Source of the DNA: a virus
IMG/VR virus record: IMGVR_UViG_3300025736_000010
Coordinates: 1 to 64,000 of that record
Direction: 5' to 3' (one strand)
Length of the DNA stretch: 64,000 nucleotides
Made by a program: the position numbers and the translations under genes. Of the stretch, positions 12,946 to 60,470 are shown one piece after another; within the stretch, counting starts at the first letter, position 1; each line of letters opens with the position of its first letter. The notes beneath the pieces are model-generated. The model worked only from the letters and a program-made list of their open reading frames with translations. It had not been told where the DNA came from and did not search any database.

Positions 12946-15270
12946 TTAATCCTCCTTTACTTCATCTTCTTCCGTGTTCGCTATAAATCTAGGTGGCAAT
13001 CCAGCTTTTTCCCTGATGGCATCCTCGATTTTGTTTGCTAATTCTCCGTCCTCTTCGATTGCCTTAGCTGCCTTATTTACCCCCTGTCCAATGTTTTCTT
13101 CTCCAAACGCAAGCCAAGAACCACTCTGTGTTATAACTCCAGTACTTTTGCCGGAATTGATTAAATCGTTGGATCTGACAATGCCCTTTCCGTAAATAAT
13201 ATCCAGCTCGGCCTTTTTGTACGGCGATGCGATCTTGTTTTTGACGATTTCTGCCGTTATGTGACCACCAATACGGTTGTCTCCGTCCTCAATTTTGCCG
13301 TGGTTGAACATTTTTACGCGAACGCTGGTGTAATATTTTAAGGCCCGGCCCCCAGACGTAACTGATCGAGGGCCAAATCCACCACCGCCGATAGCGCTCC
13401 GTAATTGATTTGTGAACACAACCATTGTATTAGATTTAGCTATAGCTCCAGATAATATGCGACAAGCCTGACTCATGAGCCGCGCTTGTTGACCCACGTG
13501 AGCATCTCCAATTTCTCCGGCTAACTCGGCACGGCTAACAAGTGCTGCCACTGAATCGATTATAACTATTCCAATGTCACCGCCGCGAATTAGCTGTTCA
13601 GCAATCTCAAGTGCTTCCTCCCCGCTTGAAGGTTGACATATTAACATATTTTCTAAGTTAACACCAAGAGTTTTGCTATACTCCGCGTCCAGCGAATGCT
13701 CAGTATCAATATATGCGGCCGTCATCCCTCGTTTTTGTGCTTCCGCAACGGAATGCAGGCAAAGGCTTGTATTGTGCGATAGTATCCCGTTAGCAATAAA
13801 ACTGTGTGTCTCTGGGACTACAACGTCAAAAGTGGGTTGTTGACCAGCACTCGTTACATCTACAACCTCTTCATACGTATATTCACTATCTAGCAAATGT
13901 GTAAGATATGAAATAATGGATATGCTCGTTTGCGGCAACGGCCTTCCAATGTTATACGCCCAATCAATTATTTTTGCCAATCTTTGCTTTGAACACTCTA
14001 AGTTAGTTTTTTGTATTATCAAATCTCCTGCTATATCGCCAAATTCTCTGTCTCCGCCACAGTCGTCCCGCAACGCCCTAACAAGCCCATATATATTCGG
14101 TATGTTCTCTGATCGCGGATCATATGTTGATCTCCTAAAGTTATCCTCAACTTGCTTTGCCCTTCTATCTGACCTAAACCCAATCCTCTCTAAAAATCTA
14201 TGAGTTGACGCGGGATTTACAAGTAGAACCCAATAAGTATGGTCATATCCCTTAGCATATTTTGGTGCGATTGTAGCTGATATCCCAAACCCATACAGTA
14301 ACAACTGAATTTCGTGTGCAAGAACTTTCGATGACGACGAGTAGCTAACTGATGAGCATTTCTCCATGCACCCGTCACCATCAAACAGCGCAGACAAGAA
14401 TGCGGCCTGTACATTTATCCCGCCAGTCCTGACACAGTGAGGGACTGACTTATAATGAGAAGTCACATAGTCCAACCCATATCTATCATATACTTCTGTG
14501 CGTATTTTTTTGCTATAAACTGCGTGTTCTTTTCCGTGGTAGTGGTGAACTTCTGCCCCAAATAGGTTTTCCATTAAACTAGTAAATTCAGCCGTAATTT
14601 GCGGGTCCTGCTTTGAGAACCTAAGTGTGTTTTTCCCAGCTATGTGCCCCTCGGCAATCAAATGTCCTAGCAAGAGCGCCTCGTCTAAGCTTATATTTTC
14701 ATCTGTCTTTGATTCAGTCGCCCCAAACAATGCTGAAACTACCATATCTCCTTTTTTTATGTCCCCAACCTTGCGCCACACAATGAACCCAGAAGAATCT
14801 ATCACTCGCAAAGGGTGATTCTGCGTAGCTGTTATCGTTCTTCCAGAACGTAATTTTACACTAAATACACTTCGTCTATTATTATGCGTTATAACAGATA
14901 TATTTTCTAGAGCGCCATTCTCGTTAACCATCTGTATATTTTTACCAGATACGTCTGTTGTTCTGGAAGTACATGTTGCCGGTTCTCCTGCCCTGTCAAA
15001 AAGCTCTGATATAGTCTCTAACCCAGCGTCTGTCCACACATAAGTGTCGGCAGTTAGGCATTTCCCGCACGCCTCATTTCCGAATATTTCGATTATCCGT
15101 CCTTTTGGAAACCCCCCTGCGCCCAATGCAATGTCTAACGCCAAAGATCCGGTGGGAACAACCTCAATCTTCTTAATTGGATGCTCGCCAGCCATCCACA
15201 TTACGCTACCCTCGCCGTATGTTTTCTTGATTTGTGCTAACGTCTTTTCTAACGACTTCCTATCACCCAT
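12946..15270 (-). CDS. recA: RecA recombinase precursor with intein
   Basis: 774-residue precursor. Residues 1-70 and 501-774 together form a 344-residue RecA: MAW-type N-terminus, IEIFGNEACGK/TSLCLH Walker A, IVIIDSVAAL Walker B, the FTNQLRSAIG motif of loop L2 and a short acidic tail. RecA binds single-stranded DNA with ATP and drives strand exchange. The intein (residues 71-500) sits between Lys and Thr of Walker A. Active RecA therefore needs splicing. Downstream of an FmdB-type gene with an 8-base overlap. Confidence 0.93.
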   Translation of the reverse strand: MGDRKSLEKTLAQIKKTYGEGSVMWMAGEHPIKKIEVVPTGSLALDIALGAGGFPKGRIIEIFGNEACGKCLTADTYVWTDAGLETISELFDRAGEPATCTSRTTDVSGKNIQMVNENGALENISVITHNNRRSVFSVKLRSGRTITATQNHPLRVIDSSGFIVWRKVGDIKKGDMVVSALFGATESKTDENISLDEALLLGHLIAEGHIAGKNTLRFSKQDPQITAEFTSLMENLFGAEVHHYHGKEHAVYSKKIRTEVYDRYGLDYVTSHYKSVPHCVRTGGINVQAAFLSALFDGDGCMEKCSSVSYSSSSKVLAHEIQLLLYGFGISATIAPKYAKGYDHTYWVLLVNPASTHRFLERIGFRSDRRAKQVEDNFRRSTYDPRSENIPNIYGLVRALRDDCGGDREFGDIAGDLIIQKTNLECSKQRLAKIIDWAYNIGRPLPQTSISIISYLTHLLDSEYTYEEVVDVTSAGQQPTFDVVVPETHSFIANGILSHNTSLCLHSVAEAQKRGMTAAYIDTEHSLDAEYSKTLGVNLENMLICQPSSGEEALEIAEQLIRGGDIGIVIIDSVAALVSRAELAGEIGDAHVGQQARLMSQACRILSGAIAKSNTMVVFTNQLRSAIGGGGFGPRSVTSGGRALKYYTSVRVKMFNHGKIEDGDNRIGGHITAEIVKNKIASPYKKAELDIIYGKGIVRSNDLINSGKSTGVITQSGSWLAFGEENIGQGVNKAAKAIEEDGELANKIEDAIREKAGLPPRFIANTEEDEVKED
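13771..15060 (-). mobile_element. LAGLIDADG intein in RecA Walker A motif
   Basis: 430 residues, beginning CLTADTYVWTDAG (Cys1 nucleophile) and ending ETHSFIANGILSHN, with Thr as first C-extein residue; all expected splice-site residues are present. Two LAGLIDADG helices are visible, LLLGHLIAEGHI and FLSALFDGDGCM, so the homing endonuclease is probably complete (second acidic residues intact). The insertion point GNEACGK/T is in the ATP-binding loop. Confidence 0.92.
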
Positions 15271-19316: not shown

Positions 19317-19737
19317 GGGTTTCTCCTTTTTTGAATGTATAGTAGGCGTAGGTGCTGTCGCCATCATCATTCTCTCTATTGACAAGCATATCGCCTGCTT
19401 TCTTGACCGCATCGTTGCTAAATCCGCCAACTCCGTTTTCTCTTGTACAAACACATACACAGCCATCCTCTACGAATGCGCTTCTGAATCTACAGAAGTC
19501 ATCGCTTGTCAGACCTACGCCAACCATATCCAGAATTGCTTGTTCTTTTTCCTGTCGTTTCTTGCGGTCCTCGTCTCTTCGCGCTATTTCTTTTACGGTC
19601 ACTGCGATCTCGTCTTCCGTCGCCGGTCTTAGGTTTTGCTTATCTGAGGTCATATAGCTTGGCGTATGAAAATACTTACCATCTATCCAACCGACGTGTC
19701 CTGAATTGTTGACAACCCATTCTCGTTTTTTATCCAT
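19306..19737 (-). CDS. Hypothetical protein (143 aa)
   Basis: AAAAGGAGAAATT precedes ATG 19737. MDKKREWVVNNSGHVGW... has a Trp-rich start, a charged helix (ARRDEDRKKRQEKEQAIL) and a VCVCTREN Cys pair. First gene of the minus block, behind promoter 19764-19792. No family recognised. Confidence 0.65.
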   Translation of the reverse strand: MDKKREWVVNNSGHVGWIDGKYFHTPSYMTSDKQNLRPATEDEIAVTVKEIARRDEDRKKRQEKEQAILDMVGVGLTSDDFCRFRSAFVEDGCVCVCTRENGVGGFSNDAVKKAGDMLVNRENDDGDSTYAYYTFKKGETHEN

Positions 19738-19763
19738 AATTTCTCCTTTTCGAGCGTTTCACA

Positions 19764-19792
19764 AGCATACACTATTCAAGATAGAAAGTCAA
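19764..19792 (-). promoter_or_regulatory. Sigma70-type promoter
   Basis: Minus strand TTGACT (19792-19787), 17-bp spacer, TATGCT (19769-19764). Proximal promoter of the minus block; it lies at the 3' edge of leader E. Confidence 0.75.
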
Positions 19793-19795
19793 TTT

Positions 19796-19924
19796 GATGG
19801 CTGGCCAGATCTTGCGAATTTCTGTCAACTCGCCTAAGTCATAGCCTGTTCGCCGATTAAGGTTTGCAGTCAGGCAGCACATTCGATAGCGGTTACTGGC
19901 TTAGCCGTCGGATTCTCAGCCATC
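19796..19924 (-). ncRNA. Structured leader/RNA E
   Basis: Starts at the predicted transcript start of promoter 19931-19959. CAGCCATC (19917-19924) and GATGGCTG (19796-19803) form a perfect 8-bp closing stem at both ends. GGCTGGCCAGAT (19799-19810) and CGGTTACTGGCT are shared with leader A. A 17-codon frame (MAENPTAKPVTAIECAA, 19923 to 19870) begins at the 5' end, without an RBS; I take it as chance or a leaderless leader peptide. It may act as a free small RNA, since a second promoter follows at once. Confidence 0.6.
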
Positions 19925-19930
19925 GAAATG

Positions 19931-19959
19931 ATTATACTGCATTCGGAGAAGAAAGTCAA
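19931..19959 (-). promoter_or_regulatory. Sigma70-type promoter, divergent hub
   Basis: Minus strand TTGACT (19959-19954), 17-bp spacer, TATAAT (19936-19931). Its -35 box lies 4 bp from the -35 box of a plus-strand promoter. Confidence 0.85.
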
Positions 19960-19963
19960 GCCC

Positions 19964-19992
19964 TTGTAATTTGTAGTGAGTGGTGGTATAAT
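19964..19992 (+). promoter_or_regulatory. Distal plus-strand promoter of hub
   Basis: TTGTAA (19964-19969), 17-bp spacer, TATAAT (19987-19992). Back-to-back with the minus promoter, so one bound regulator could affect both. Confidence 0.65.
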
Positions 19993-20024
19993 TGGAACGT
20001 GTGGAAAGGCCGACTTGAATCGCC

Positions 20025-20053
20025 TTGACAGATGCGGGAGAATAGTGTATAAT
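20025..20053 (+). promoter_or_regulatory. Proximal plus-strand promoter of hub
   Basis: TTGACA (20025-20030), 17-bp spacer, TATAAT (20048-20053). Perfect boxes. Starts leader C. Confidence 0.9.
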
Positions 20054-20059
20054 AGTTTC

Positions 20060-20238
20060 ATAGTGAACACCAAAAGGAAGTCACAAAATTTGCAGCGTTT
20101 CGGGGGCAATCAAAGCCCAAATCCCGTTCACTATCCGGGGCGCTGCTATTCGTTTGAAATAAACATTGGTTGCACGGAGTTGGCTAACGCCATAAAACCT
20201 CCGTGGTACTTCGTGCAATCGATGAAAAATCACGGAGG
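20060..20238 (+). ncRNA. Structured leader C with SD-hiding alternative pairing
   Basis: About 180 untranslated bases. Part 1 can form a pseudoknot: ATAGTGAAC (20060-20068) with GTTCACTAT (20126-20134), interleaved with GCAGCG (20092-20097) and CGCTGC (20141-20146), plus GGGC/GCCC (20104-20107, 20115-20118). Part 2 is a switch: CCTCCGTG (20198-20205) is an exact complement of CACGGAGG (20231-20238), which contains the SD of the gene at 20244, but also pairs with CACGGAG (20173-20179). GGTTGCACG/CGTGCAATC (20168-20176, 20212-20220) supports the SD-free form. Confidence 0.7.
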
Positions 20239-20243
20239 ATTAG

Positions 20244-21401
20244 ATGAGTAACAACGGCGGGAAAATAGTTCTTTCAGACTGGCTAGCAAAGATGCATGAT
20301 TTCACTTCTGTTCCAAACTCGATATTAAGCCATCCAGATATATCTAATCGAGCATTCAGATTGTGGGTTGCGTTGCATTCATTCCATTTCCGTATTAACG
20401 GCAGGATATTCCCTGGAATGGAAAAACTAGCAGAGACTATACACATGTCAAAGTCAACGGTATTTAGGGCAATTAAGGAATTAGAGGAATTGGGACTTGT
20501 TAGTATTAAGCATCGCGGGTTTGACGAGACTAACGAATACACATTGTATGTTCCACAAGATTTAAAACAACCAGGGAATCCAATAGAGTCTTCTGGCAAG
20601 AAACAATCACCCGGCAATGACCGGTCAAATGTGACCGATAGCAGTCGGTCAAATGTGGCAGAAGAAGAAAACAGAGTAATTAAGAAAACTAAGAAAGAAA
20701 AGGAAATCGGAACAAAGGAAAAGAAAGAAAAACGCGGCATAGCCGCTGTCCCTCCTTTAAAAACTAAGGACTCAACTACCAAAACAACACAAAGACCGCA
20801 GTTACGTAACGGCCCATCAACTATCCCTCCCAAAAACCGCTCGTATTTTTCCAGTGGATACATCACAAATACAGACCCTATTAGAGCTTCAGTATCTGGG
20901 CGATACGATAATCTTTTTAGGCGCACAGCGGAAAAGAACGGCCTTGTCGTAACTGAAAAGAAACAAAATAAAGCACTATTAGTGTCAGCATTCCCTGGGT
21001 GCGGCAAAACATGGCTATATACAAATAGCGGCAAAACAGTATTAGACAGCGATAGTAGCACATTCGACAAGAGCGATTTTCCACAAAACTATATCGAGCA
21101 CATTAAACAAAATCTTGACAAAGCAGATATTATACTGATAAGCACACATTCCGACGTAAGAGAAGAACTTGTGCGTGAACACTTGCCATTTACACTTGTT
21201 TATCCTTGCCGAGAATGCAAAAATGAATACATTGAACGATATAAGAAGCGCGGAAGCGATCAGGGCTTTGTGGCTTTATTGGATAAGATGTGGGATACGT
21301 GGATAGATGAATTAGAGGCGCAGAAAGGCTGCGAACACATAGTTCTTTGGCACAACGCATTTCTGTCAGATGCAATTAATAATCTGATAGAAGACACTTG
21401 A
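20244..21401 (+). CDS. Winged-helix / P-loop fusion, replication-type protein (385 aa)
   Basis: ATG 20244 is 5 bases after GGAGG (20234-20238). Residues 10-105 form a winged helix like phage replication initiators: TSVPNSILSHPDISNRAFRL, LAETIHMSKSTVFRAI, LEELGLVSIKHRG. Residues 115-205 are a Lys/Ser-rich linker. Residues 240-385 hold a P-loop (SAFPGCGKT, 248-256), DSDSSTF, IILISTHSDVREELV and TLVYPCRECKNEYIERYKKR, an uncharacterised phage nucleotide-kinase-like domain. Controlled by leader C. The fusion suggests DNA binding tied to an NTP-dependent step; exact role unknown. Confidence 0.7.
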   Translation: MSNNGGKIVLSDWLAKMHDFTSVPNSILSHPDISNRAFRLWVALHSFHFRINGRIFPGMEKLAETIHMSKSTVFRAIKELEELGLVSIKHRGFDETNEYTLYVPQDLKQPGNPIESSGKKQSPGNDRSNVTDSSRSNVAEEENRVIKKTKKEKEIGTKEKKEKRGIAAVPPLKTKDSTTKTTQRPQLRNGPSTIPPKNRSYFSSGYITNTDPIRASVSGRYDNLFRRTAEKNGLVVTEKKQNKALLVSAFPGCGKTWLYTNSGKTVLDSDSSTFDKSDFPQNYIEHIKQNLDKADIILISTHSDVREELVREHLPFTLVYPCRECKNEYIERYKKRGSDQGFVALLDKMWDTWIDELEAQKGCEHIVLWHNAFLSDAINNLIEDT

Positions 21402-21426
21402 CAAAGCTAAATCGTTGTGTTAGAAT
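21398..21426 (+). promoter_or_regulatory. Sigma70-type promoter
   Basis: TTGACA (21398-21403), 17-bp spacer, TAGAAT (21421-21426). The upstream string ATAGAAGACACTTGACAAAG is repeated at promoter 22976. Confidence 0.75.
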
Positions 21427-21464
21427 GGGGTTGTAAAATTCATAGAAGACAAGAAGGAGCAAGA

Positions 21465-22907: not shown

Positions 22908-22975
22908 TCCGTAACTGAAAAGAACTATCCGATTCATGAAAACTTGGATGGAAACACAAACCCCATAGAAGACAC

Positions 22976-23004
22976 TTGACAAAGCGACAGAATCGGCGTA
23001 TAAT
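22976..23004 (+). promoter_or_regulatory. Sigma70-type promoter
   Basis: TTGACA (22976-22981), 17-bp spacer, TATAAT (22999-23004). Perfect boxes, 27 bases before the gene at 23031. Confidence 0.9.
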
Positions 23005-23030
23005 GGCTAAAACAGATAACTGGAGGAAAA

Positions 23031-23395: not shown

Positions 23396-23580
23396 GAAAA
23401 GGTTCCTCCCCGATGACAAGAGCCCAGGGGGTTCTGCCGTAGTTAAAGCCGATGATAATGCCCTATGGCGCAGGAGGCGACAAGGCTAGTTGGGGAGGTC
23501 AAAAAGCAGGCGCGGTTACGGTGTCCGCTGCCAGGCGCAAGTTAGATTAACGGCACGTAGCCGCGTCACCAAAAGGAGAC
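23396..23580 (+). ncRNA. Structured leader D, two domains
   Basis: About 185 untranslated, GC-rich bases before the gene at 23584. Domain 1 is closed by CCTCCCC (23405-23411) with GGGGAGG (23492-23498). Domain 2 is closed by CGCGGTTAC (23511-23519) with GTAGCCGCG (23557-23565), 9 bp with one G-T pair, and contains GTTA-gat-TAAC. The SD (AAAAGGAG, 23571-23578) follows domain 2. No terminator and no tRNA-like T arm is seen. Confidence 0.6.
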
Positions 23581-57685: not shown

Positions 57686-58824
57686 TTAATATCTTGATGT
57701 GTATATCTACAGAGCAAGACATAGAATCTCCGTCAATGGGATCGGAACGCGAAATGCTTGGCTATTCCGAGGCTTTAGCGGAAAGGGGGCACGTAGTATC
57801 AATTGTAAACGTACTTAGAGCGGCTCCTGACTGGAACATTGATTATGATGTTTGTCATCTGGTAAATGCAGGTGGATGGAAAGGCGCACCGATTCTAACA
57901 GCGCAAATGTGCAAGTTAAAAGGAATACCAGTTGTGATTTCTCCTGTCTACTGGCCCACAGATGAGATGCAGCGTGAAATCGCGGAAAAGTTCAAAAAAA
58001 ATCCAGAACTTGTATCAGACCAATTTGGCGCACATCTACAAGGCGTTAAGAGCATGTTGGAAGAGGCTGATTGGTTGTTGCCAAACGCTGAAATTGAGAT
58101 GGACAGAGTAGCAGAATTATTGTATGGCGATACATCAAATCTTTATGACGATGAAATAGATCAAATTGGATATACAGTTATCAGCAACGGTGTTGATGTT
58201 GCGAACGAAACAGACATGGCGCTCCGCCTTAACTACGAGGAATTGCTATTTGACGATAGCCTTGAGGATATTCTAGCAGATAGATTTATTCTATGCGTTG
58301 GCAGGGTCGAAATTAGGAAAAACCAAGCATCTCTCGTCGAAGCGATGAAACCACTGTGGGAAGAAGATCCAGACCTACAGTTAGTATTGATGGGGGCAAA
58401 GTCAATACCATACGTAGATTACATCAAGGAAGAGATTAAAGGCAAGAATATTCTATTTTGTCCTCCAGGCCCTCCTGTAGCTGTTGCTAAGATGATGCGT
58501 AGATGTGCCGTCCATGTTCTAGTATCGCTCATCGAAACTCCGGGATTAGTGAACCTAGAAGCTGCTGCCCTCAACAAACCTATCGTCGTAGCAGACCGTG
58601 GTTCTGTCTCTGAGTATTTTGGCAGCGAACCAGGGGTCTTCTACTGCGATCCATTTGATATCGAAGGAATGACTTTTGCATTACGAGGCGCGTTGAAAAT
58701 GAAGGAAGCCAATGTTCTTGGTGATTTTGTACGTAAAACGTATTCACACGCTAAGATTGCTGGTGATATCGAGGCAGTTTACGAGAAAGTTATTGCCTCA
58801 ACGCGAAAAGGAAACATTAAATGA
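57685..58824 (+). CDS. Glycosyltransferase, GT4-like, apparent ATT start (379 aa)
   Basis: AAGGAG (57671-57676) stands 8 bases before ATT 57685, which gives (M)NILMCISTEQDIES, the usual beginning of GT-B enzymes; TTG 57694 or ATG 57697 would cut into the first strand and lie 18-20 bases from the RBS. ISNGVDVANE, RFILCVGRVEIRKNQASLVE, LVSLIETPGLVNLEAAALNK and the E-x7-E motif identify GT4. Transfers a sugar from a nucleotide-sugar; acceptor unknown. Confidence 0.78.
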   Translation: MNILMCISTEQDIESPSMGSEREMLGYSEALAERGHVVSIVNVLRAAPDWNIDYDVCHLVNAGGWKGAPILTAQMCKLKGIPVVISPVYWPTDEMQREIAEKFKKNPELVSDQFGAHLQGVKSMLEEADWLLPNAEIEMDRVAELLYGDTSNLYDDEIDQIGYTVISNGVDVANETDMALRLNYEELLFDDSLEDILADRFILCVGRVEIRKNQASLVEAMKPLWEEDPDLQLVLMGAKSIPYVDYIKEEIKGKNILFCPPGPPVAVAKMMRRCAVHVLVSLIETPGLVNLEAAALNKPIVVADRGSVSEYFGSEPGVFYCDPFDIEGMTFALRGALKMKEANVLGDFVRKTYSHAKIAGDIEAVYEKVIASTRKGNIK

Positions 58825-60470
58825 GGGCCGCACTTTTAACAAACCAACTATTTTTATGGGAAAACCCAAACGAACTAGCAATAGGCGGAGGAGAACGGTT
58901 TTCGCTACAGTTTGCGCAATTGCTATTAGATCTTGGATACGAAGTTCATATATATCAGTATTCTCCGGTAGGATTTGACAAAATGCACAATGGAACGCAC
59001 GTTCACGGCATTCCTAATTTCAAAGGCGACGGACTATTGTGGACTGGAATGTGCGATTACTTTTACGATTACACGAAGCGCTTTGATCGTGTGTTTATTA
59101 ATCTTCCTGATTTCGCGGCTGGTAAAGTTCGCGGCGACGCAACGCTAATTACGCACGGGGTTCTCTGGTGCAATAAGCCAGTCGGCGAACTACCTGACGA
59201 TAAGAAAGAAAAACTTTGTAAGATATGGAGCAAGGTTTATAAGAATGTTGTCGTCCATGAATTTACGAGAGAAACAATTCGAGAACTTGGGTTAGACGAT
59301 GTTGCAGATAAGATAGTTTGCATAGGTAACTATGTTGATACAGATATATTTAAGCCAGCCAATAAGAAGCCAATTATTATATTTCCTGGCAGAGCGGAGG
59401 TTTTCAAGGGGACAGGACTAATGCAGGAAGTACTTGAGCGTCTTTCTGATACTGGTTGGGAGGTGGCGTGGGTTGGGGATGGAGCACAGTTTGATAAACT
59501 AAAGACGCTGGAAGACAAGTATAGTAATTTTAGCGCAATAAGCGTTCCTTTAGACACAATGCATGAAGTTTATTCACACGCATCAATATGTATGGTGTTT
59601 AATATATCATCTCGCGGTAACAGCTTGACGTTGATGGAGAGCATGGCTAGCGGTTGTGCGTGTATCGGAATTGACGGCGGAACAACGCTTATAGAAGATA
59701 AAGTAAACGGATTGTTGTGTAAGCCTAATGCGCAGGATGTGGCTGACAAAATTAAGCAGTTAATTGCAGATGAGGATCTACGCAACAGGCTTGGTTTTCA
59801 AAGCCGGAAAGACATTATTAGCGAACACAACAAAGAAAAGTGGGAAAGAGAATGGATTAATGTAATAGATGGAGAGGGAGGAAATATGACAGACATTTAC
59901 CAAGAACGCTATGTAAAGCACCAAGAGGCTAAGAAGAATATGACGGCTACAGATAAAAAGCCAGAATACACAGACACAGAGATTATGACGCTATTTAAGG
60001 TAATGCACGAACGCAGAAGCCAGAGATTGTTTAACGATGACAATATAGATACAGACAGGCTAAAGGGTATTATGAAAGCCGCAGAACTTGCTCCTTCTTC
60101 ATGTAATCGCAAAGCCGTTAGGGCAGAATTGATTAGGTCGGAACATGATATATCGTTGTTGTCGAAGCTTCTTGTAGGTGGATCTGGTTGGTTAGAAAAT
60201 GCGAACGCTGTTGTGTTGTTGCTTGCTGATATGGCCGCATATAAATCGCCAGCAGAGGTTGGGTTTATGCCGTTTCTTGACGCAGGCGTGATTGCGCAGA
60301 ATATCTATCTTATCGGTGAGGCTCTTGGCGTTGGTGCGTGTTTCGTTAATCCAAATATTCGCGAGGCTGACAAGGAAGAATTTGATTCGTCGTTTTTGCC
60401 AGATGGATATCGATTCTGTGGAGCACTTGCTCTTGGGAATTATGATTTAAGGGAGGCAAAGCACGCTTGA
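58821..60470 (+). CDS. Glycosyltransferase-nitroreductase fusion (549 aa)
   Basis: ATGA overlap at 58821. Residues 1-350: GT-B glycosyltransferase (ELAIGGGERFSLQFAQLLLD, PIIIFPGRAEVFKGTGLMQE, NSLTLMESMASGCACIGIDG). Residues 356-549: nitroreductase-like FMN domain (FKVMHERRSQRLFNDD, AAELAPSSCNRKAVRAELIR, FLDAGVIAQNIYLIGEALGV). No stop lies between. An in-frame ATG at 59886 with its own GGGAGG could make the nitroreductase alone. Flavin chemistry plus sugar transfer in one phage protein is unusual. Confidence 0.82.
   Translation: MRAALLTNQLFLWENPNELAIGGGERFSLQFAQLLLDLGYEVHIYQYSPVGFDKMHNGTHVHGIPNFKGDGLLWTGMCDYFYDYTKRFDRVFINLPDFAAGKVRGDATLITHGVLWCNKPVGELPDDKKEKLCKIWSKVYKNVVVHEFTRETIRELGLDDVADKIVCIGNYVDTDIFKPANKKPIIIFPGRAEVFKGTGLMQEVLERLSDTGWEVAWVGDGAQFDKLKTLEDKYSNFSAISVPLDTMHEVYSHASICMVFNISSRGNSLTLMESMASGCACIGIDGGTTLIEDKVNGLLCKPNAQDVADKIKQLIADEDLRNRLGFQSRKDIISEHNKEKWEREWINVIDGEGGNMTDIYQERYVKHQEAKKNMTATDKKPEYTDTEIMTLFKVMHERRSQRLFNDDNIDTDRLKGIMKAAELAPSSCNRKAVRAELIRSEHDISLLSKLLVGGSGWLENANAVVLLLADMAAYKSPAEVGFMPFLDAGVIAQNIYLIGEALGVGACFVNPNIREADKEEFDSSFLPDGYRFCGALALGNYDLREAKHA

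Follow-up and report, generated by a model that had tools for sequence, protein, structure and literature searches.

The 64,000-nt stretch of DNA analyzed here (the window) comes from a phage record of 112,896 bases (IMG/VR IMGVR_UViG_3300025736_000010), and the locus around the leader described below is identical in a contig from another sample (L001). The leader is 184 nt long, consists of two folded domains, and lies between the following promoter and gene.

20025 to 20053, + strand: sigma-70-type promoter, TTGACA-17-TATAAT, matching the consensus at 12 of 12 positions (promoter scan)
20244 to 21401, + strand: regulated gene (385 aa), with an HTH_36/DnaD-like/O-like N-terminus and a P-loop C-terminal domain (phrog_4182)

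The position of the promoter sets the predicted transcription start site (+1) at A20060, as deduced from promoter spacing, and the RNA would thus begin with the first base of ATAGTGAAC. N-termini of the HTH_36/DnaD-like/O-like type are characteristic of replication initiators and helicase loaders of phages, and the label "replication-type" given to this gene by an initial annotation of the window appears fair as a description based on profile matches only. The product combines a replication-initiator-like HTH with a P-loop domain that other phages have without this N-terminus. An exact 21-base repeat is present at 21387-21407, in overlap with the promoter predicted for the transcript that follows (start at 21433), and at 22965-22985, just upstream of a transcript starting at 23011. 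Elsewhere in the window, a RecA-type recombinase gene on the minus strand (12946-15270) is interrupted by an intein with a LAGLIDADG endonuclease domain, and a plus-strand reading frame (58821-60470) combines a glycosyltransferase and a nitroreductase-like domain. The phage also carries a tmRNA gene at about 99950-100314 of the record (L021:17451-17815; 57 bits, E 8e-20), and its tRNA genes number at least two (two in L022).

The strings on which the initial annotation was built are all located where it had placed them, namely, CCTCCGTG (20198-20205), CACGGAGG (20231-20238), CACGGAG (20173-20179), GGTTGCACG (20168), CGTGCAATC (20212), ATAGTGAAC (20060), GTTCACTAT (20126), GCAGCG (20092), and CGCTGC (20141). 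Folding of the whole leader gave an MFE of -67.2 (z = -4.6), and none of 200 shuffled sequences was as structured. The first domain (20060-20146) is composed of the following elements.

20060 to 20068, + strand: pseudoknot strand a (AUAGUGAAC), formed by nt 1 to 9 of the predicted RNA, an exact 9-bp complement of 20126-20134
20092 to 20103, + strand: pseudoknot strand b (GCAGCGUUUCGG), 12 bp with 20135-20146 (MFE helix)
20104 to 20118, + strand: small hairpin GGGC...GCCC within the pseudoknot loop (MFE)
20126 to 20134, + strand: strand a' (GUUCACUAU), complement of strand a, with b' directly 3' of it
20135 to 20146, + strand: strand b' (CCGGGGCGCUGC), partner of b in the 12-bp helix

The interleaved helices had been proposed to form a pseudoknot, and this proposal was borne out, with the GCAGCG/CGCTGC helix extending from 6 to 12 bp. 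The combination of a 9-nt 5'-end pairing with an interleaved helix of at least 10 bp was found in 0 of 20,000 dinucleotide shuffles, indicating that the 5' pseudoknot exceeds chance and is real by this measure. Since a' and b' are directly adjacent, the two helices could stack end to end, and the 5' end of the RNA would then be buried at the junction. The pseudoknot starts at nucleotide 1 of the transcript; it probably protects the 5' end from decay, and domain 1 may also serve as a protein-binding site. By eye, the same a-b-a'-b' order was seen near the predicted start site in two leaders of HNH genes from other phages (L044 and L034), and in L044 the second helix is followed, as read from the sequence, by a terminator-like U-run. 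In both of these leaders (L034:1390-1500 and L044:1410-1500), the partner of the 5' strand is located in the loop of a hairpin resembling a terminator.

Long terminal helices closed by the first nucleotides of the transcript also occur at several other promoters of this phage. They are enriched at predicted start sites, since 6 of 39 strong promoters had helices of -14 kcal/mol or lower versus 0.6 expected. These transcripts start with 60 to 150 nt of structured RNA, followed by an A-rich stretch, an SD, and a start codon, and none of the other terminal-helix transcripts of this phage, which are as follows, matched Rfam.

12361 to 12250, - strand: terminal-helix transcript, in the window
10898 to 10740, - strand: terminal-helix transcript, in the window
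19924 to 19798, - strand: terminal-helix transcript, in the window
23396 to 23570, + strand: terminal-helix transcript, in the window
about 86738, 97393, and 102751, + strand: terminal-helix transcripts, in the record outside the window
about 107767, - strand: terminal-helix transcript, in the record outside the window

The second domain (20164-20241) contains the SD, and a U-rich strand lies between the two domains.

20147 to 20156, + strand: U-rich strand able to pair with the start-codon region 20241-20250 (MFE; 10 bp, including 4 G-U)
20164 to 20180, + strand: outer stem P1, 5' strand, 17 bp including G-U (probability 0.96)
20181 to 20192, + strand: inner hairpin P2, UGGC/GCCA (MFE)
20198 to 20205, + strand: anti-SD (CCUCCGUG), exact complement of the SD strand
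20208 to 20224, + strand: outer stem P1, 3' strand (probability 0.96)
20228 to 20241, + strand: SD hairpin AAUC-ACGGAG-GAUU, with the SD core in its loop (20232-20237), complementary to 20199-20204

Positions 20162 to 20246 folded better than chance (z = -4.9; 0 of 200 shuffles), and an anti-SD with an enclosing stem equal to those observed was found in 0 of 3,000 shuffles. The anti-SD is carried in the inner loop of P1, 3' of P2, where it lies in the loop region of a 3-bp mini-hairpin (P3, 20197-20207), with a kissing core, CUCCGU, at 20199-20204. Because 8 to 10 bp are available between the anti-SD and the SD, the latter can be covered by pairing inside the leader. This could happen in two ways, namely, by a nested helix that would break P1 or by a loop-loop contact that would preserve most of P1. 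The two loops being complementary, P1 allows occlusion of the SD by a loop-loop or pseudoknot contact; with a contact of the pseudoknot or kissing-loop type, P1 and the anti-SD:SD pairing need not exclude each other. Rough geometry suggests that the linker is too short to span 17 bp, so that either the bottom pairs of P1 would fray or the SD stem would open. The closed nested form lies 1.6 to 2.6 kcal/mol above the MFE even without a pseudoknot. In the pseudoknot-free ensemble, the SD core was mostly unpaired (0.85 to 0.94), which counts against an SD lock. The start codon was paired at about 0.97 in the nested ensemble, through a weak pairing with 20147-20156 that adds about 4 kcal/mol.

A motif scan of 130 ATGs preceded by good SDs, on both strands of the phage and against 650 shuffles, ranked the window leader at the top (-49.6), followed by the leaders of the genes at 102837 (-40.6) and 86823 (-31.8), whereas none of the 650 shuffles reached -30. 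Two further observed scores were -30 or lower, at 81089 and 67203; the candidate at 81089 and the next-ranked one, at 104389, were discarded because both lie inside genes. The genes at 102837 and 86823 encode NUMOD4 plus HNH_3 homing endonucleases with 55% mutual identity. Their leaders begin at the predicted start site and contain an outer stem, an inner hairpin, an anti-SD, and an SD, in a sequence that differs from that of the window leader despite the common layout. The loci L023 and L026 are the same as those at 86738 and 102751; their contigs are 99.99 to 100% identical to this phage and were therefore not counted twice.

Four additional leaders were obtained from four other phage contigs, three by similarity of the HNH protein (L024, L031, and L040) and one by sequence pattern (L063). 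The pattern, CCTACAG...CTGTAGGAGGT, returned 30 stretches, mostly chance matches, with L063 as the sole new true-looking member; as read from the sequence, it precedes an HNH-like gene of a different subfamily. All four leaders have the outer stem and two hairpin loops, one with the anti-SD and the other with the SD. In their alignment, 95.6% of the cells were paired, versus 37 to 49% in slid controls, and compensatory double changes were present at 4 pairs of P1 and 2 pairs of the SD stem. The four sequences point in one direction and provide modest covariation support, which applies to the HNH leaders, the window leader being represented by identical copies only in the searched collections.

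Together with the window leader and those of the genes at 102837 and 86823, these four make up a set of seven, in which the two loops remain complementary although their sequences are of three kinds (CUCCGU/ACGGAG, UCCUAC/GUAGGA, and AUCUCAUG/CAUGAGGU). Domain 1 is missing from the six other leaders. A strict kissing-hairpin descriptor run on both strands of 1.87 Mb placed the window leader, L063, L024, L031, and L040 at ranks 1 to 5; these ranks hold within the 1.87 Mb, and the control, with 4 matches in 0.72 Mb, provides a count only. The first cases were already known when the motif score and the descriptor were designed, and the rank statistics consequently carry some circularity, which is least for the four leaders from other phages, since three were retrieved by protein similarity alone and L063 by sequence pattern. 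The window leader has the stem, the inner hairpin, the exact loop-loop complementarity, and the start codon of the HNH-leader layout, whereas its gene is HTH_36/DnaD-like with a P-loop domain and is not a homing endonuclease gene. A covariance model built on L031, L040, L024, and L063 (R1) found only its own four members among the searched loci and missed the window leader as well as both HNH leaders from this phage. The kinship is thus architectural, common descent not being demonstrated, and the shared layout may have arisen more than once. Relaxed HNH searches (80 viral and 13 genome loci) yielded no new member. In another HNH leader (L051, 1400-1500), an anti-SD:SD helix and a loop contact occur in a different arrangement. 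The complementarities, their excess over chance, the layout in six other leaders, and the compensatory changes among four of them are directly supported by these comparisons.

The leader did not match any known RNA class, in keeping with the initial annotation, which had recognized no known riboswitch class: Rfam gave no match in the window at the gathering score and nothing relevant at E values up to 10 (19700-20500) or up to 5 (window). A blastn search with the leader against phages and plasmids returned chance matches only, and the exact three-part pattern was found in viral_contigs only in the identical copy. Proteins with the same N-terminus, sought in viral contigs and in a bacterial and archaeal set with a single genome per species, were limited to identical copies, the remaining matches sharing only the C-terminal P-loop domain, and a portal-based search for relatives returned the same virus only.

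Three other identities were considered and set aside. The order of the helices in domain 1 recalls that of an HDV-like ribozyme, whose joining segment carries the catalytic C. The predicted RNA starts at the first strand, leaving nothing upstream to cleave, and the adjacent 3' strands leave no room for a joining segment. Antisense control of the IncB-plasmid type was rejected since the promoter scan detected no minus-strand promoter inside 20060-20260. A leader peptide is a weak candidate, with no homologue and an ambiguous codon score.

We consider it rather probable that the leader is a cis-acting translational lock on the replication-type gene. Domain 2 would present the anti-SD loop on a rigid 17-bp stem, and the weak downstream hairpin would display the SD in its own loop. 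Loop-loop pairing of 6 bp, extendable to 8 to 10 bp, would keep the 30S subunit off the gene, leading to low or delayed expression. On newly made transcripts, the anti-SD loop would occupy the SD, which would be released at some stage of infection by a protein, by translation or RNase processing, or by temperature. We infer that the contact forms in the cell, represses translation, and is relieved during infection. The same layout precedes homing-endonuclease genes of this and other phages with different sequences, which suggests that the lock on translation is probably a reusable one. The notion of an SD occludable by a pseudoknotted leader, put forward in the initial annotation, is retained, and its anti-SD:SD layout has comparative support from other leaders of the same and other phages.

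Two alternatives retain a regulatory switch. In the one originally proposed, CCTCCGTG alternates between CACGGAG at 20173-20179 (open) and CACGGAGG at 20231-20238 (closed), and an outer helix favors the open form. Both complementarities are present in the sequence, and so is the outer helix, which extends over 17 bp. However, this helix contains 20173-20179, and P1 consequently competes with the CACGGAG:CCTCCGTG pairing and gives it no support. The open pairing breaks the 17-bp stem, lies 7.5 to 9 kcal/mol above the MFE, and has a probability of about 0, and by eye no CACGGAG-equivalent copy was seen in the other leaders. This two-state switch is very improbable. In the second alternative, the SD contact is set by binding of a metabolite or a phage protein to domain 1 or to the stem junction; one candidate is the replication protein, in analogy to gp32, which binds its own leader. 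This possibility draws on the presence of a separate 5' pseudoknot domain upstream of a domain resembling an expression platform, on a mode of action like that of the L5-L13 kissing loop of cobalamin riboswitches (PMC9600662), and on the likeness to the gene 32 pseudoknot, which is located 67 nt upstream of the start codon (PMC3014915). It is weakened by the lack of an Rfam match, by the lack of domain 1 in the other leaders, and by the lack of a nucleotide core common to the seven leaders beyond the paired SD, the window leader being compared through identical copies only. The riboswitch reading of the initial annotation thus gained no positive evidence, and we regard a ligand- or protein-responsive switch as possible but doubtful.

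The remaining alternatives do not involve a switch. A leader frame starting at TTG20090 or GTG20063 stays open up to TAA20249-20251, so that its last 8 nt overlap the start of the gene, and an AGGAAG (20075-20080) is located 9 nt before TTG20090; translation of this frame could open the SD contact and feed ribosomes to ATG20244. Such coupling is unlikely, as an open frame was present in 19% of shuffles, the peptide has no homologue, and the codon score is ambiguous (only 5.7% of true-gene windows were as low and 8.8% of off-frame windows as high). It is similarly improbable that the leader serves mainly to protect the mRNA, with the pseudoknot sealing the 5' end and the SD complementarity being incidental. 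The enrichment of start-site helices argues for such protection, which nevertheless leaves domain 2 and the anti-SD:SD pairing in seven leaders unexplained.

Phages need to restrain their free-standing homing endonucleases to avoid being damaged by them; for most of these enzymes, the means of translational restraint has been an open point in work on T4-type phages (PMC2988022). The layout described here, with its compensatory changes, recurs before HNH genes of five phages and before a replication-type gene in one of these, as an element absent from Rfam. Should the window leader have a sensing function as well, it would represent a phage version of the translational riboswitch that acts on a replication gene. 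A broader scenario, which we offer as speculative, is that a portable kissing-loop SD lock carried by free-standing homing endonucleases was also taken up by a replication-initiator-type gene, where, in combination with the 5' pseudoknot, it would tie translation to a phage-stage signal, for example the replication protein.

Several known leaders resemble parts of this one. In the timP leader, which belongs to a type I toxin mRNA, an upstream stem-loop also pairs with a downstream one and decides the use of the SD; this pseudoknot is supported by covariation, activates translation, and is broken by an sRNA (PMC11228461). Unlike in timP, the contact covers the SD itself in the window leader, and repression is therefore expected, although by analogy with timP a leader pseudoknot may activate instead (PMC11228461). 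In cobalamin riboswitches, the L5-L13 contact likewise connects an upstream hairpin loop with a downstream loop and controls the expression platform (PMC9600662), whereas the window leader has no Rfam match, the cobalamin family included, and no recognized aptamer core. Gene 32 of T4, T2, and RB69 is also a DNA-replication gene with a pseudoknot near the 5' end of its leader, well upstream of the start (PMC3014915). Compared with that pseudoknot, domain 1 is of greater size and extends from +1 itself, with an SD-pairing domain downstream of it; no sequence kinship with gene 32 was seen, and no gp32-type target is known here. Phages hide the ribosome-binding sites of endonuclease genes and of some late genes in mRNA structure, including those of homing-endonuclease mRNAs of T4 and Aeh1 (PMC3014915, PMC2988022). 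In the leaders of T4 I-TevI, I-TevII, I-TevIII, and segB and of Aeh1 mobE, the SD is concealed by mRNA structure, and translation is limited or delayed (PMC2988022, PMC3014915), as proposed for the window leader; six sister leaders of the present set precede HNH endonuclease genes. The leaders described previously belong to endonuclease genes, in contrast to the replication-type gene of the window, and their helices pair with the ribosome-binding site directly, whereas here a separate stem-loop offers its anti-SD loop to the SD hairpin.
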